64,000 bases of DNA, taken from NCBI GenBank assembly GCA_902761145.1, contig CACWJA010000004.1:1-64000 (forward strand), read 5' to 3'. The notes under the pieces are model-generated. The model made no database searches and was not told the origin of the DNA. It saw nothing but the letters and a program-made list of their open reading frames with translations. The stretch comes from an uncultured bacterium. Lineage in GTDB: Bacteria; Patescibacteriota; Saccharimonadia; Saccharimonadales; Saccharimonadaceae. The position numbers and the translations under genes were made by a program. This document shows positions 2,496-50,102 of the stretch, piece after piece; the stretch's first letter is position 1, and each line of letters opens with the position of its first letter.

Positions 2496-2570
2496 GTCGG
2501 GGGTCGGAAGATTGGGGGGCGGGGCGGCTATTTTACGAGACAAAGGATGGCAAGGCTGGAAGTAAAAACT

Positions 2571-2757
2571 GCTAAACCTACCTAGCAACGCACCGTAAAG
2601 AGAAGCCGTTATCCCTATAGTCGTCATGCTGAGGGAGTAGATAGCCGCCCATAGTGAAAACGAGTTTATACGAATTGCCGCTACTGTACACTACACTAGA
2701 CCAGTAGTTGCCGTTGCTCCCAGCGTCTCTAGATCTACCGCCCCTGCTGCCACCATA
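2571..2757 (-). repeat. Putative diversified variable region of FISUMP protein 1
   Basis: This is the last 60 codons of the FISUMP gene plus 7 nt after the stop. It has exactly the length (187 bp) of the matching region at 42793-42979. Invariant blocks (18 nt around Tyr-Trp-Ser-Ser-Val-Val, and the 3' CTAGGTAGGTTTAGC spanning the stop codon) alternate with codons that differ completely at positions 1 and 2. Most variable codons end in C or T. That is the pattern left by adenine-directed mutagenic homing of AAC/AAT template codons. No template repeat or reverse transcriptase is in the window. Confidence 0.5.
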
Positions 2758-4019
2758 GACAAAGTAAACCGGGCCGTTCTGGATATTGCCGCTAGTACCG
2801 GCGGAAAGACCTTGTGCGTTTACTAGGTTTTGGTAAGATTTGTCTCCCTCATAGGTAGGTAACCTCCAGCCAGCCGGACAGATGGATTGGTTTACGTCTG
2901 TGTGTCGCGAAGTATACGAGCTAGAGTCACTCATAGCTACAGCGGCAGCCCAGTTGTAGTAGTTACCGATGTGGTAGTGAGTGCCGCCAGATGTAGTAGA
3001 TGGGTCTGTCACAGTTTCGTTATCTAGATTACCGTCCCAGTTTGTATTTAATGTGCCATCCCAGTAGAGGTCACCTGGGTCGTAGGATTCTGGAGCAGTA
3101 TAAGAATAATTCCAAGTAGTGGTGCCAGTAGGATATGTAGCTTCACTAGAAGTAGGAGTCCAGGTAGTCCCTATGCTGGAGTTAGCGAGGTCTGTATCTG
3201 CACTAGTGTAGGTTCTGCCGGCTTCTATGTCTAGGTTTAGGTTTTGTGTCATCCAGATATTGCCGTCGGCAAGTTTGGTAATCCAGTATTTCTTACCGTC
3301 TCTGCTATCTGTAGCCTGCATAGTGTCGCCTACATTGGTTAGCGTCTCTTTTATCCTTGCTGTTTCTTGCATTGTAGGAGGTTTTTCTGGCGCTGGGGCA
3401 GTAGAGGGGTGAACTAGAGTATATTTGACCTTGCCGTTATATGTACCTGCTGGTTGGGTAGGGGAGATGTAGGCTTGGTAGGTGGTAGAGATAGAAGAGC
3501 CAGTAGTAGAAGTGTCTGGATTAGTGATAGTATTTAATGTGGCTACCTTAGTGTAATCGTCTGGGGCTGTGTGGTAGTTATCATAACTATTTTCTATAGT
3601 AGCTGTAGTAGTGCCTGGTACTGTGGATAGTTTCATAGACCAGTTGCTAGTACTTCCTGAAGTAGATGTACCTGTAGAGATATTGTAATCATCTGAGATA
3701 CTAGATTTTAGTGAAGTATTGCCATATTCGTCATTAGTGTAGCCTATAGCATAGACTGCATAGCCTCCTTGATCATTACAAGTGACATTTAGAGTAGTCT
3801 TACCTATATCGGTGCTATTGACACCATTTTACCTACTGTGACTGATGCATCTAGACTGCTGCCGGCTGAGCCGAGATCTTCGTCATCTGCATGAGCGTAA
3901 TTTAGCTCGGTAGTGTAGATCATGAAGCAGATGGCTGCCAGTGTGTATATGGAGATGTTTAGCAATAGAAGTGGGTGGATGGAGGAGTGATCTTTTTTTG
4001 TTGTGTGTTTGATGCTCAT
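2578..4019 (-). pseudogene. FISUMP-domain surface protein, one-base frameshift (phase-off or pseudogene)
   Basis: The N-terminal frame starts at 4019 with a signal peptide or membrane segment (residues about 18-37) ending near an AHA site. It terminates after 71 codons. The following frame, open from about 3825 down to 2578, encodes the rest. Adding one A to the AAAA run at 3827-3830 joins them into one frame of 480 residues, almost the length of the intact paralogue at 41527 (481). Shared features are a secreted beta-rich N-terminal domain, a Pro-rich linker, and the FISUMP domain (DSRDGKKYWITKLADGN motif, CPAGWRLP, then the YWSSVV and RCVAR ends). The C-terminal 60 residues vary between paralogues. 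FISUMP domains have a C-type-lectin-like fold and are common on bacterial cell surfaces. Ligand binding or adhesion is inference. The break could be a real mutation, phase variation or a sequencing error. Confidence 0.8.
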
Positions 4020-4121: not shown

Positions 4122-4958
4122 ATGATAACAAAAGCTATTATTCCGGTAGCAGGGTGGGGGACTCGGCGGCTACCTATTACCAAGATTATAGAAAAATCAA
4201 TGCTTCCGGTGGGGAATCGTCCGCTGGTGGATTATTCCGTGCAAGATCTGATAAAGGCGGGTGTAAAAGATATATATATGGTGATATCTAATGTAGAGCC
4301 GTGTCAGGTGCGGGAGTTTTACAAGGACAATTTAGCATTGAATCAGTATTTGATGGATCGTGGCAAGGAAGATAGGTTGAGGCTGGCTAAGACTTTGCCG
4401 GATGATGTGACGATACACTATATTGCGCAAGATCCGGCTGATAAATATGGTACAGCGGTGCCAATAGCGATGGTGGTGGAGGAATACAATATAAATGAGC
4501 CAGTGCTTGTGTTTATGGGCGATGATTTTATTTGGAATCCAGGCGGCGAAAATGCTGCAGAGGCACTGATAAAAGCAGCTGGGGAAAATGAGAGCGCAAT
4601 ACTGGGCGTGGAGATTCCACGAGAGAAGGTAGGCAAATATGGGGTATTAGCCGTAGAAGATGGTAAATTAATGAACGTGGTAGAAAAACCTACGCCGGCA
4701 GAAGCGCCGAGTAATTTGATAAATGTATCGAAATATATAATGACGCCAGACCTACTAAGGCGAATAGTGCGGTACGTAAAGGAAAATGATTTTGGGCCAA
4801 AAGACCAGGAGTATATGGTAACGGACCCAATAGATGAATATATCAAAGATGGCGGTATAATGCGTGTAGCGCCTACAACTGGCGAATATCTAGACGGCGG
4901 ATCGGTAGAAGGGTGGTTGCATGCAAATGAAGTTGTATGCAATGGTGTTGATAAGTAG
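4122..4958 (+). CDS. galU: UTP--glucose-1-phosphate uridylyltransferase
   Basis: This cytosolic enzyme makes UDP-glucose from UTP and glucose-1-phosphate, feeding cell-surface glycan synthesis. The 278-residue nucleotidyltransferase shows the N-terminal nucleotide-binding signature GWGTRRLP with the downstream Lys (EKSMLPV, residues 24-30) and an FMGDDF metal-site motif. It is close to the family's usual 290-300 residues. TATAAT (4107-4112) ends 9 nt before the ATG with no ribosome binding site, so a leaderless or very short-leader mRNA is likely. Its last five codons (Gly-Val-Asp-Lys-stop) form one arm of a long palindrome whose other arm is the 3' end of the convergent gene. Confidence 0.92.
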   Translation: MITKAIIPVAGWGTRRLPITKIIEKSMLPVGNRPLVDYSVQDLIKAGVKDIYMVISNVEPCQVREFYKDNLALNQYLMDRGKEDRLRLAKTLPDDVTIHYIAQDPADKYGTAVPIAMVVEEYNINEPVLVFMGDDFIWNPGGENAAEALIKAAGENESAILGVEIPREKVGKYGVLAVEDGKLMNVVEKPTPAEAPSNLINVSKYIMTPDLLRRIVRYVKENDFGPKDQEYMVTDPIDEYIKDGGIMRVAPTTGEYLDGGSVEGWLHANEVVCNGVDK

Positions 4959-5119
4959 GTTTTGCCAGCTTGGACTTTTTCATTGCTATTTTTATAACGC
5001 AAGTCAAGAAAAAATTTTTCCTAATCTCGGGAAATTTTTTCATTGTTGAGTTGTAAAAATAGCATTCAAAAATCTGGTCTAAATCTCATTTATGCTGGCA
5101 AAACCTACTTATCAGCACC
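4944..5119. repeat. Long nested palindrome whose arms are the 3' ends of both flanking genes
   Basis: Arms 4944-4969 and 5094-5119 are complementary at 25 of 26 positions. Each includes the stop codon and last codons of a convergent gene, so galU ends Gly-Val-Asp-Lys-stop and the synthetase ends Gly-Ala-Asp-Lys-stop from the same DNA. A second stem lies inside (ATTGCTATTTTTATAAC near 4983 with its partner near 5051). The inner core shares GGACTT, AAGAAAAAAT and CTAAATCTCATT with the family B element at 38604. It could act as a bidirectional terminator. Confidence 0.85.
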
Positions 5120-6832
5120 TTTTGTATCACCGAGCTCTTTAGCCATGCGTTCGAGACGGCGGAAGTCGGTCTTGTTGGCTTTGGTGAGTGGGAGGTCGTC
5201 TAGGAAGATTACTTTGTGTGGAAGTTCGTAATCTTTGAGAGTGATGCGGCGGCGGCCGAGATTGAATGGTTCGGCTGATTTGGCTATAATCTGCTTGCGA
5301 ATGTCTTCGTTGTGACCGACTCCGTCATTAGTAACTACAAAAGCATAGGCGGCGAGCTTGAGCTTGGGGTCGGGGCCTTTGACTACGTAACATTTTTTGA
5401 CGAGGTCGGATTTGGAGACGGCAGCACGGACTACTTCGTAGTAGACTTTGGCTGGGAGATTATTGATGAAAAATGTGGCGCGACCGACTAGATTGACAAA
5501 GCCAGTCTCGGTAACATAGGCGAGGTCGCCTGTCTTGACGAATTTTTTGCCGTGAATAGTAATGATTTTGTCTTCGGTGAGCTCAGGGCGATTGTGGTAG
5601 CGGCTGAGGATATGCTTGCCGGTGACATAGAGAATGCCGGTTTTGCCGAAATTGAGCTCCTCGCCAGTGTCTGGATTTAGCACCATTACATGGACGCCGG
5701 CAGGGACTTGGCCTACTGAGTCAGGATTGTAGGTGCGGTTGCCGACGGCGGTAGAGATGAGACCTAGGGCTTCGCCTACGCCGTAACCATTGCTGATCTT
5801 AATGTTTTTGAGGCCGCGAGATTTGAAGAAATCTAGTGCAGCTAGAGAGGCGGATTTTTCTAGGCGTTCGCCGCCAGAAGCAAACATCTTTAGGTTGCTA
5901 ATATCGGTGTCTTCTTTGAGTGAAGGCATAGCCTCAAGAAGTGGTGGAATACCAAAGATAGTATTGGGGTTTTTGCCTATATAGTAATCTAGGTTGGTGT
6001 CGTCGATATCTGGAGTAAGGATGACTTCGCCGCCACCGCAAATAGGTGCAATGGTAGAGACTACTAGCCCATATGGGCAGTCGAAATGAACATAACTCAT
6101 CCAGGAATGTAGCTCTTTGTCCCACATTTTGACATCGGAAGCGACTTTGGAATAAATAGCGGAAGCGATTAGGGCCTTATTGGTAAAGACCATTGGCTTA
6201 GGGCCAGAAGTAGAGCCAGAAGTAAAGGAAATAAGGGCTTCTTTGCGAGCTGAGAAGAAATTTGAGGGTATTCGGCCATGATATTTGTCAGCTATCTTGG
6301 TGATAGGCTGGCGATCTAGCCAAAAGCCGTCTAGGGCATGGAAATCTATATCTTCTAATTGTTCGTCGTCTGGGCCGGATTCATCTATGGTGCGGCCGTC
6401 TAGATTGATGACGTGTTTGACAGATGGGGCATCGTGTTTGATGGCCTCGATGCGTTCATCGGAATACTTATAAGTGATAAGTAGTGGGGATTTGAATTCA
6501 TCTAGATAGTGGATGAGAGTGTCGCGGGCGGTTTTCTCGTCTAGAAAGCTTACAATGGCGCCGATACGATTGGCTGCTAGGAAAATAAGGACATTTTCGT
6601 ACATACTACGGCCAGTGGCTACGGTGATAATATCGCCAGATTTGATACCAAGAGCCAGGAATGCCTTGGCTAGAGTTTTGCGGTCTTGCTTGAGCTCATA
6701 ACGGGTAAAGTTTAGCTCTTTCTGATTGATAACTATGTCGTCGTTGTGGCCGATACAAGAAAGATCGAATAGCCCAGAGATGCTCAACGGTGGCACTGCT
6801 GGGTCACGTTTTTGATGCTTGATTTTTAACAT
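5105..6832 (-). CDS. AMP-dependent synthetase/ligase (acyl-CoA synthetase-like)
   Basis: A 575-residue member of the ANL superfamily, which activates a carboxylic acid as an acyl-AMP. The sequence shows the phosphate-binding loop SFTSGSTSGPKP (about residue 205), the adenine-binding segment NGYGVGEALG (about 350), the TGDLAYV motif (about 425) and a C-terminal lid with LPLTKANKTD including the catalytic Lys. The substrate is not clear: a fatty acid, aryl acid or amino acid are all possible. No carrier or condensation domain is attached. The start follows GAGGTAATA, with a TATAAT box about 25 nt upstream, so this gene has a short leader. It is a single gene, convergent with galU. Confidence 0.85.
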   Translation of the reverse strand: MLKIKHQKRDPAVPPLSISGLFDLSCIGHNDDIVINQKELNFTRYELKQDRKTLAKAFLALGIKSGDIITVATGRSMYENVLIFLAANRIGAIVSFLDEKTARDTLIHYLDEFKSPLLITYKYSDERIEAIKHDAPSVKHVINLDGRTIDESGPDDEQLEDIDFHALDGFWLDRQPITKIADKYHGRIPSNFFSARKEALISFTSGSTSGPKPMVFTNKALIASAIYSKVASDVKMWDKELHSWMSYVHFDCPYGLVVSTIAPICGGGEVILTPDIDDTNLDYYIGKNPNTIFGIPPLLEAMPSLKEDTDISNLKMFASGGERLEKSASLAALDFFKSRGLKNIKISNGYGVGEALGLISTAVGNRTYNPDSVGQVPAGVHVMVLNPDTGEELNFGKTGILYVTGKHILSRYHNRPELTEDKIITIHGKKFVKTGDLAYVTETGFVNLVGRATFFINNLPAKVYYEVVRAAVSKSDLVKKCYVVKGPDPKLKLAAYAFVVTNDGVGHNEDIRKQIIAKSAEPFNLGRRRITLKDYELPHKVIFLDDLPLTKANKTDFRRLERMAKELGDTKGADK

Positions 6833-38603: not shown

Positions 38604-38748
38604 GGTAATCAAAATAACCCCTTCCGTCGCTCGGACTTGTTTGGCTTATAATTTTCACAACGTAGGGCAAGAAAAAATGTCTTTAGTCGCTAACGCTAGG
38701 GACATTCTAAATCTCATTATGCTCCGGAAGGGGTTATTTCTGATTACC
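38604..38748. repeat. Structured palindromic repeat, family B full copy
   Basis: Arms 38604-38626 and 38725-38748 match over 23 bp with one unpaired base (left GGTAATC-AAAATAACC, right GGTTATTTCTGATTACC). The inner part contains a TGTC...GACA hairpin with GTCGCTAACGC between. Shared with 2191 (left half) and 2311-2474 is the CAAAATAA / TTATTTCTG pair at the inner end of arms of different sequence. Shared with 4944-5119 is the CTAAATCTCATT...ATGCT right core. Confidence 0.8.
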
Positions 38749-41283: not shown

Positions 41284-41526
41284 TATTGGCGAACCATGTA
41301 ATAAAAACCTGAAGTTACAAACACGTTGCAGCCACCCGCAAATAATGCAATATCTTAGCTATTTCTGGTTGCCTAAAACTGCAGCTTCCGAATTGCAGTA
41401 GATGATATAACATCACATCATCTGTAAATAAAAATAAGAGTTATAATGTTAATATTTGTCTTGTTTTATAAAAATATGCTATTATATATTTATAAACATA
41501 ATAACAATGATTATAGCGAGGAAATC

Positions 41527-42972
41527 ATGAAGAAAAAACAATCCAAAATATACTTATTCCCAGCAGCAATGTTGGGTATTACTGCTACTGCTGGAATGAT
41601 AGCTAATATACCAGGAGCTAATGCAGATGATAATCCAGCTATAGACGATACCATCAATATCACAGTAGATTCATCCTGTACTATGGGCCAGACAGTTACA
41701 TCTACTCACACTACAGCACTAAACCCAGGAGAAACTAACACTACCATAGGACAGTCTCGTATAGCAGCATATTGTAATGACAATGAAGGTTATGCTATAT
41801 ACGCTATAGGCTACACTAATGGTGAATATGGTAATACTAATCTAGTAAGTACAGACGGCAATCATACCATCCCTACAGGCACATCAGGAGATAACTCCTA
41901 TTGGAACATGAAGCTCACCCAAGGTATAGCTACAGGCACTATCAGCTACCTGCCTACCATGGTAAATGAATTCACTACCAATGCCACCATCCCAGATGAC
42001 TACACTAAAGTAGCCTATAGAGACTCTAGCACTATCTCACAAAACCAAGATCCTACAGAGTCAGGCTCTTACTTCACTACTACTTACTCAGCCCATATAG
42101 ACACTACCCAACCAGCTGGCATCTACAATGGCCAAGTCCAGTATGTGATGGTGCATCCGAGTGGTGCGCAGGCGCCAGAAATCCCGCCTACTTATATGCA
42201 AGATACGGCTGCTATTAAGAATAAGCTAAAAAATAACGGTGATACCATGCAGGCGGTAGATAGTAGAGACGGTAAAAAATACTGGATTACCAAGTTGGCT
42301 GACGGTAATATCTGGATGACTCAAAACCTAGACCTAGACATAGACTCCACTAAAACCTATACTCCAGCAGACACCGATATTCCGGCCAACTGGACGCCAG
42401 TGCGTAGTACTACAAATAGCACTACGTGGGATACTAGTACCACTGGACGAACTGTCCCCCATTCCTACGACCCAGGCAATCTTTACTGGAATGGCAATGT
42501 AACTACTAGTACTAGTGGCACTCTTAGCAACAGCACCACAACAGATCCATCCGCTACGTCTGGTGGTACTCACTATCATGTAGGTAACTACTACAACTGG
42601 ACTGCTGCAGTAGCTATGAATAGCTCCAGCTCATATACTTCAAATTATCGAGATGTAAACCGATCTATCTGCCCTGCTGGCTGGAGATTGCCTACCTATA
42701 GCGGTGATAAGTCTTACTATAGCCTAAAGAATGCCCAAGGCTTAACTTCTGGCACCAGTGGTAATATCCAAAACGCTCCTACCTATTTCGTATATGGCGG
42801 CGGCTGGTATGGCGGCTCGAGTTTCGTAGGCTACGACGGGGTCTACTGGTCTAGTGTAGTGGCCGATAGTACCTACGCGTACCAGCTCAGCTTCGGTGCC
42901 GGTGGCGCTCTGTACCCTCAGGGTAGCTACGGTCGCTACCGTGGCTATTCGATACGGTGTGTAGCTAGGTAG
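41527..42972 (+). CDS. FISUMP-domain surface protein, intact copy
   Basis: The 481-residue secreted protein has a signal peptide (about 1-34, ending in ANA), a beta-rich N-terminal domain (about 35-215), a Pro-rich linker and a FISUMP domain (about 245-481) with DSRDGKKYWITKLADGN, GGTHYHVGNYYNW, CPAGWRLP and YWSSVV, closing with RCVAR. The start ATG 41527 follows GAGG at 6 nt; upstream in-frame Met codons lack a ribosome binding site. It is the unbroken paralogue of the gene at 2578-4019 (480 residues after repair). The last 60 codons are a candidate diversified ligand-binding region. No sorting motif is visible. Confidence 0.88.
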   Translation: MKKKQSKIYLFPAAMLGITATAGMIANIPGANADDNPAIDDTINITVDSSCTMGQTVTSTHTTALNPGETNTTIGQSRIAAYCNDNEGYAIYAIGYTNGEYGNTNLVSTDGNHTIPTGTSGDNSYWNMKLTQGIATGTISYLPTMVNEFTTNATIPDDYTKVAYRDSSTISQNQDPTESGSYFTTTYSAHIDTTQPAGIYNGQVQYVMVHPSGAQAPEIPPTYMQDTAAIKNKLKNNGDTMQAVDSRDGKKYWITKLADGNIWMTQNLDLDIDSTKTYTPADTDIPANWTPVRSTTNSTTWDTSTTGRTVPHSYDPGNLYWNGNVTTSTSGTLSNSTTTDPSATSGGTHYHVGNYYNWTAAVAMNSSSSYTSNYRDVNRSICPAGWRLPTYSGDKSYYSLKNAQGLTSGTSGNIQNAPTYFVYGGGWYGGSSFVGYDGVYWSSVVADSTYAYQLSFGAGGALYPQGSYGRYRGYSIRCVAR

Positions 42973-42979
42973 GTTTAGC
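42793..42979 (+). repeat. Putative diversified variable region of FISUMP protein 3
   Basis: 187 bp matching 2571-2757. About 30 of 59 residues agree with that copy, and they fall in fixed blocks (YWSSVV, GG, PQ, RCVAR). The other positions vary freely, largely through NNC or NNT codons. The upstream FISUMP core is far more conserved (the DSRDGKK...MTQNL block is identical). Confidence 0.5.
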
Positions 42980-43021
42980 TATTCCTACCTCCAGTCTCTC
43001 CGAAACTCATTTGAAACTGCA

Positions 43022-43134
43022 ATACAATGCAAAGATGCCTTGATGCGTAGCATTGTAGTGTATGAAATAAAAGACGTTTGAAACAAATTGGAATGAAAGC
43101 GTGAAAAATTGAGTAGAAAATACAATTTTCACGC
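43022..43134. terminator. Two hairpins in the convergent gap
   Basis: TACAATGC/GCATTGTA (43022-43057) and GCGTGAAAAATTG/CAATTTTCACGC (43099-43134, 12 paired bases with one bulge) lie between the FISUMP gene and the convergent surface-protein gene. No long T run follows, so the terminator role is tentative. Confidence 0.45.
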
Positions 43135-44034: not shown

Positions 44035-44171
44035 TTGTCGCATAAATCCACCGTATTTCGGAAGTTTCGCTTTGATGTAATCAGAGATTATACATCAAAG
44101 CTCCGCCCCTCCGGCGAAAAAATCTAAGATTTTTTCTTAATGTTCCTCAATACTAGTGGATTATGCGACAA
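44035..44171. repeat. Structured palindromic repeat, family A copy 3
   Basis: Outer arms TTGTCGCATA(A)ATCCAC (44035-44051) and GTGGATTATGCGACAA (44156-44171) pair fully apart from one bulged A. Inner hairpins are GCTTTGATGTA/TACATCAAAGC (44069-44101) and AAAAATC/GATTTTT (about 44118-44135). The cores TTTCGGAAG and CTTAATGTTCCTCAA are conserved. It sits in the divergent gap between the DUF916-like gene and serS. Confidence 0.87.
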
Positions 44172-49958: not shown

Positions 49959-50102
49959 ATATTACCCCACACACTACATTTCGGAAGCTGTGTGATGTGA
50001 TAATCGAAGATTATATCACATCACTCCGCCCCTTCGGCGGCCAAACTTGCTAAAGCCAAGTTTGGCCTTAATGTTCCTCAATTGTAGTGTGTGAGGCAAT
50101 AT
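49959..50102. repeat. Structured palindromic repeat, family A copy 4
   Basis: Outer arms 49959-49978 and 50083-50102 pair at 18 of 20 positions with a sequence unlike other copies (CACACACTACA/TGTAGTGTGTG). Inner hairpins are TGATGTGAT/ATATCACATCA (about 49992-50023) and a 12-bp GGCCAAACTTG/CAAGTTTGGCC stem (about 50039-50067). The cores TTTCGGAAG and CTTAATGTTCCTCAA are conserved. It lies between two convergent genes, the M16 peptidase and murD. Confidence 0.88.

Follow-up and report, generated by a model that had tools for sequence, protein, structure and literature searches.

A genus-restricted palindromic insertion element of Saccharibacteria with arms that mirror the DNA beside gene ends

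A near-perfect palindrome at the junction of two convergent genes in a Saccharibacteria genome is one copy of a genus-restricted, palindromic insertion element. Copies of this family lie just past stop codons, carry arms of fixed length that arise whole, leave no direct target duplications and, at the junction where the palindrome was noticed, have changed the end of one gene. The best explanation is probably that insertion of a terminator-bearing element copies a fixed length of host DNA in inverted orientation, and such copying would account for unrelated convergent genes having the same terminal residues. Small palindromic repeats and template switching are each well known. In the literature, searched through open-licence papers only, no case was found of a family element coupled to inverted copying of its target over a fixed length.

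The palindrome and its repeat family

In the window, by which we mean the whole 64,000-nt stretch of DNA that was analysed, galU (UTP-glucose-1-phosphate uridylyltransferase; 4122-4958, forward strand) converges with a gene for an AMP-dependent synthetase (5105-6832, reverse strand). The first-pass annotation had described the ends of these genes as the two arms of one palindrome with 25 of 26 bp matched, and arm matching confirmed this: of the 26 bp in the outer arms (4944-4969 and 5094-5119), 25 are complementary, and the arms can be extended to 4941-4969 and 5094-5122 (29 nt, 93% matching). The left arm, read on the forward strand, holds the final galU codons GGT GTT GAT AAG and the TAG stop at 4956-4958. 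The right arm, on the reverse strand, is its inverted copy (25/26) and holds the final codons of the synthetase with a TAG stop at 5105-5107. Each stop lies 11 nt from the inner edge of its arm. As had also been claimed, these unrelated genes have a common end, the proteins finishing in NGVDK and KGADK (here and below, residues are given up to the stop), nearly the same residues followed by the same stop codon. Chance can be set aside, since the top inverted repeat of the window is the 26 bp of this palindrome, against 16 elsewhere, and the longest inverted repeat in 30 dinucleotide-preserving shuffles of the window was at most 16. A scan of all 64 kb found no other inverted repeat that reaches 20 nt within 400 nt. 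Its folding z-score is -14.7.

Between the arms lies the core of the family element (4970-5093, forward strand), which is matched by the covariance model over 4962-5101 (E 6.6e-26). In an alignment of copies, all features being given on the forward strand, the core opens with the conserved left-end motif TTGGACTTT (4970-4978) and closes with the conserved right-end motif GGTCTAAATCTCATTTAT (5076-5093), immediately after which the arm begins. An inner stem pairs 4976-5002 with 5046-5072 and shows double Watson-Crick changes among copies, and an A-tract, hairpin and T-tract at 5008-5041 are built like a two-way intrinsic terminator. The window copy was not called by a simple consensus terminator scan, so the label 'terminator' rests in this case on anatomy. 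Only tRNAs in the window were matched by Rfam 15, and the palindrome itself gave weak matches, mostly to unrelated microRNA models, far below the gathering threshold.

All copies of the family have fixed motifs at both ends, GGACTTG (left) and CAAATCTGGTCTAAATCTCATTAT (right; also given as ..GGTCTAAATCTCATTAT), and the 3' end of the element reads ..CATTAT. The core measures 75-145 nt. Between the end motifs the stems vary by paired Watson-Crick to Watson-Crick changes, with 26 covarying pairs, and the A-tract, hairpin and T-tract are found inside 92 of 108 copies. A shorter subfamily has identical ends and a single inner hairpin. Within one Saccharibacteria genus, 68 of 174 genomes carry the family by the covariance model and 64 by blastn; none of the 142 other genera of the order that were sampled gave a hit (a draw of 295 genomes from 143 genera). 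Every named record in which the right-end motif occurs exactly belongs to Candidatus Saccharibacteria, and many come from ruminant guts; one member of the element-bearing genus is Ca. Nanosyncoccus alces, whose record carries the motif. An exact scan of viral contigs found no exact right-end motif. Misassembly was set aside, since copies, orthologous pairs among them, come from assemblies made independently.

The genome carrying the window copy (G000; G and L numbers denote the genomes and loci compared) has three copies: that at galU, a shortened one at 38604-38748 (forward strand; arms 38604-38626 and 38725-38748) and one on contig 2. The core at galU had been thought akin to the element at 38604, and the common motifs GGACTT..., CAAGAAAAAA and TCTAAATCTCATTATGC establish the kinship. 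The shortened copy has lost 40 internal nt that are present in the intact G078 orthologue (L132). The two are nearly identical, arms included, with a divergence of roughly 10-15% in the flanks. The contig 2 copy (G000:C2:117219-117412, L002) has a terminator-like hairpin tandemly duplicated inside it and shares its arms with the 38604 copy.

Of 108 copies, 96 have a gene 3' end no more than 60 nt from the core: 27 on the left only, 28 on the right only and 41 on both sides. With left-only and right-only cases so even, the element can be said to follow stop codons with indifference to strand, sitting a few to ~30 nt past them in either orientation. A stop codon falls within an arm in 74 copies, and both stops do so in 18. 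Several convergent pairs with both stops at equal offset end in like residues (IATE/TVTE, PTQE/KAQE, EMEE/PAEE, NYKK/KNKK and FINK/SIGK), and conserved host codons lie inside arms, for example those of uS7 (HFAR) and GroEL (GGMY). Paralogous genes ending in LRCVAR, which recur in the window at 2552-3781 and 41472-43119, adjoin some family copies.

Arm length and rewritten gene ends

Arm statistics were drawn from 99 non-redundant copies; a fair arm score was required of each, which trims the short end of the lengths and not the upper limit. The median arm is 25 bp (IQR 23-27), with a standard deviation of 3.7 against the 24.8 expected if lengths were geometric. The arms are about 96% Watson-Crick overall, pairing at 92-99% over positions 1-21 and reaching background by position 28. 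Core length (45-186 nt) hardly affects arm length, the relation being only weak, and a fixed total palindrome size was rejected as the ruler on that ground. Two loci, L052 and L207, contain tandem units of the right-end motif plus an arm of 26, 27 or 27 nt, which look, as far as sequence can tell, like the trace of a ruler that measures the arm from the right-end motif. The arms also have a weak base profile in common, T-rich at positions 7-11 and A-rich at 15-20, so a reading based on copying a fixed length needs a target preference as well.

The earlier inference that one arm was copied from the other can be examined in relatives without the element, where the two genes do not end in the same codons (G078, G175/G079 and G001). 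In these genomes galU ends in VVCGV (G078), VVCGS (G175, G079) or VVCKERK (G001), with VVCG, CGK or CNN in more distant genomes, and the synthetase ends in GETKTAKV (G078), GEINK (G175, G079) or GEEHK (G001); the two proteins agree in the last residue only, and in 2 of 3 cases (V in G078, K in G001). With the element, the ends become CNGVDK and GDTKGADK (G000) or CGNTNK and GSVENTNK (G174, G164). The C-terminus of galU is thus lengthened, from three residues after VV to six, the synthetase keeps its length, and AATAAATA is common to the synthetases of G175, without the element, and G174, with it; for these reasons the native end appears to be that of the synthetase, and the galU end to have been overwritten. 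The synthetase is the probable arm donor and galU the gene overwritten, a call based on C-terminal length and the AATAAATA match, with no exact ancestor behind it. At the bL25 locus, empty relatives show AQE to be native to the left gene; the right gene has changed from LKNNP to IRKAQE, mirroring the AQE of bL25. The two loci run in opposite directions, which means that copying can go either way. The changed galU end, the bL25 locus and the whole-arm origin described below all support the inference.

No empty site was close enough for a base-by-base reading of the insertion, and junctions often hold other inserts. In G078, the closest relative, the galU junction (L255) holds a different palindromic family (..TATTATTCATCA..ATATCGAGG..) with relatives in the window at 342-455, 44077-44152 and 49978-50039, and in G175 and G079 it holds another insert, of 467 nt. 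At L334-L336 and L329, L330, orthologous gene ends carry inserts that are palindromic (about 264 bp) or GC-rich (182 bp). With other inserts in place of the family element, these junctions turn over quickly. At a junction that is occupied by the family element in G175 and G079, G164 and G174 have a 222-bp palindrome with another core (L320, L321), the arms of which are 22+ bp, perfect and of similar T-rich/A-rich profile; given like arms at the same junction, cores of more than one kind may acquire their arms by a common process.

Arms that mirror gene ends could also be native stems, if the element, in the manner of group IIC introns, enters the loop of a terminator hairpin that was already there. 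Insertions do lie where terminators lie, the element-free uS7 locus of G124 has a terminator palindrome AGATAAAAAGACAGGTCC/GGACCTGTTTTTTATCT that mirrors the stop codon, and the galU junction of G001 has a 14-bp stem with G-T pairs spanning both stops. Native stems, however, fall short of the arms in length and are imperfect (outside the elements, none in the window exceeds 16 bp), whereas the arms keep to 25 bp with almost complete pairing. Nor is the inner arm a GC-rich stem; the far gene's end is altered at the galU and bL25 loci, and the tandem units of motif plus 26/27 nt would be left unexplained. We consider this account unlikely as a general one. It is possible that a pre-existing terminator hairpin contributes as the landing site at some loci, such as uS7, where part of the arm may be pre-existing since G124 has its palindrome without the element. 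Downstream of uS7 in G003, G060, G147, G148 and others (L225, L228, L229, L232), a conserved near-perfect palindrome, ATCTACTTATGYTATAATTARCATAAGTAGAT, overlaps a TATAAT box and is probably an operator.

How the arms arise

Comparisons of copies at the same locus fall into two classes. Nine pairs with the same arms show 12 one-sided changes and 0 mirrored ones; most other same-locus pairs differ by 3-13 mirrored changes over 21 positions, often with flanks of comparable identity. Core identity is 0.985 in same-arm pairs, 0.879 in same-locus pairs with different arms and 0.862 between unrelated loci. Different-arm cores are therefore about as unlike as unrelated copies, and mostly represent independent insertions at the same gene ends. 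The galU copies of G000 and G174, with a core identity of 0.877, may likewise be two separate insertion events. One locus is seen in two states, L163 and L171, and in L171 the far gene's last codons have been overwritten. Judged from these alignments, arms are made whole from local DNA at each insertion and then decay one-sidedly.

It could be argued that template-switch correction of quasipalindromes, ongoing in replication, keeps the palindrome perfect while its arms grow outward with time. This is a known mechanism for making and mending hairpin stems (PMC8794818), and the core stems do show Watson-Crick to Watson-Crick double changes. The absence of any mirrored change in the nine same-arm pairs, together with an arm length that is fixed and not broadly spread, makes it improbable.

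Care must be taken with covariation, as Watson-Crick covariation alone is no proof of a selected RNA structure; here, the element stems covary because they are copies of each other. A structured RNA, either a 3' UTR element or a terminator with stems kept by compensatory selection, would fit the strong fold, the 26 covarying pairs and the terminator-like inner hairpin. Among non-Watson-Crick arm positions, however, G-T makes up 21.5% against 17% in random sequence, a near-random share that gives no sign of RNA pairing selection on the arms. Nor is there a strand preference relative to genes (27 vs 28) or an Rfam match, and the same-locus comparison is bimodal. Such selection is thus very unlikely to explain the arms, and may still apply to the inner core.

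Arms are unique to each locus and alike only at orthologous loci, bar two recent duplicate pairs; one recent duplication in G000 involves two copies with common arms. The first-pass annotation had expected copying to explain variable but complementary arms elsewhere, and locus-unique arms that arise whole are in keeping with this. Inheritance of arms from a donor copy was rejected because arms are not common to unrelated loci, recent duplicates aside. Direct duplication just outside the arms was not found beyond the null from shuffled pairs (observed 1.93, null 1.94). An ordinary miniature transposon, into whose own terminal repeats both genes read to acquire the same C-terminus, fits the galU junction taken alone and the two recent G000 duplicates that do have common arms, but is scarcely credible when arms are otherwise never common to unrelated loci, contain conserved host codons (those of uS7 and GroEL) and are accompanied by no direct target duplication.

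In the preferred reading, inverted copying of host DNA by a terminator-bearing element, the element would insert shortly after a stop codon in either orientation, and ~26 nt of host DNA from one side would be copied inverted onto the other at each insertion. Arms would thereby be unique yet complementary in every copy, and the far gene could receive the near gene's last codons. The element may join one side of a break, where its 3' end (..CATTAT) would fold back, be extended on ~26 nt of exposed host strand and then be joined to the other side, with the built-in terminator making insertions tolerable. Both the fold-back extension and the tolerance are inferred. Alternatively, the same product could be reached by replicational template switching between the terminator hairpin and a donor copy; in the study of Monttinen and Loytynoja (2022, PMC8794818), a single switching event is shown to be enough for a perfect stem. 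That fold-back 3' end extension constitutes a new insertion mode, a fixed-length (26-27 nt) inverted target duplication that rewrites the C-termini of neighbours, is put forward tentatively and could well prove wrong.

A mobilising enzyme was not found among the Y1 transposases and reverse transcriptases searched, DDE families being outside the search. Y1 transposase (Y1_Tnp) occurs in 8 of 174 genomes, none of them G000, and RVT_1 in 98 of 174, including 39 of the 68 element-bearing genomes (the latter counted by hand). Neither is associated with the element, and both were rejected as its mobiliser.

Comparison with known systems

Like MITEs, RUs and Rickettsia palindromic elements, the family is short, non-coding, palindromic, intergenic and present in many copies, and some small palindromic repeats reach into coding ends, as it does. 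Unlike them, its arms mirror the local host and are not conserved between copies, there is no direct target duplication, and no parent transposase was found. Two criteria for a MITE, terminal inverted repeats common to copies (two recent duplicate pairs excepted) and direct target-site duplication, are not met, nor is the REP/BIME criterion of a Y1 (RAYT) transposase in the host, G000 having none. Group IIC introns insert at intrinsic terminators just after genes, and the family resembles them in landing site. It has no intron domains in its 75-145 nt core and no Rfam match, so that the criterion of catalytic RNA domains recognised by Rfam is not met, and the arms are not explained by introns.

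The coding palindromes of nematomorph mitochondria (PMC6649704) are likewise inverted repeats with both arms protein-coding; these differ in being long perfect repeats inside genes, with no common core element. Template switching and quasipalindrome correction (PMC8794818) likewise yield a reverse-complement copy of nearby DNA and perfect stems in one event, whereas the family has a copy fixed at ~26 nt, a fixed motif, an inserted element and no ongoing correction that could be seen. The criterion for a template-switch palindrome, that an arm derives from one reverse-complement copying event, is met, given the one-sided decay and altered gene ends. Known transposition leaves direct target duplications. 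A fixed-length inverted target duplication, if true, would add a new result and imply a hitherto unknown enzyme that measures out ~26 nt, and the element would show one way in which non-coding DNA comes to rewrite the ends of proteins.
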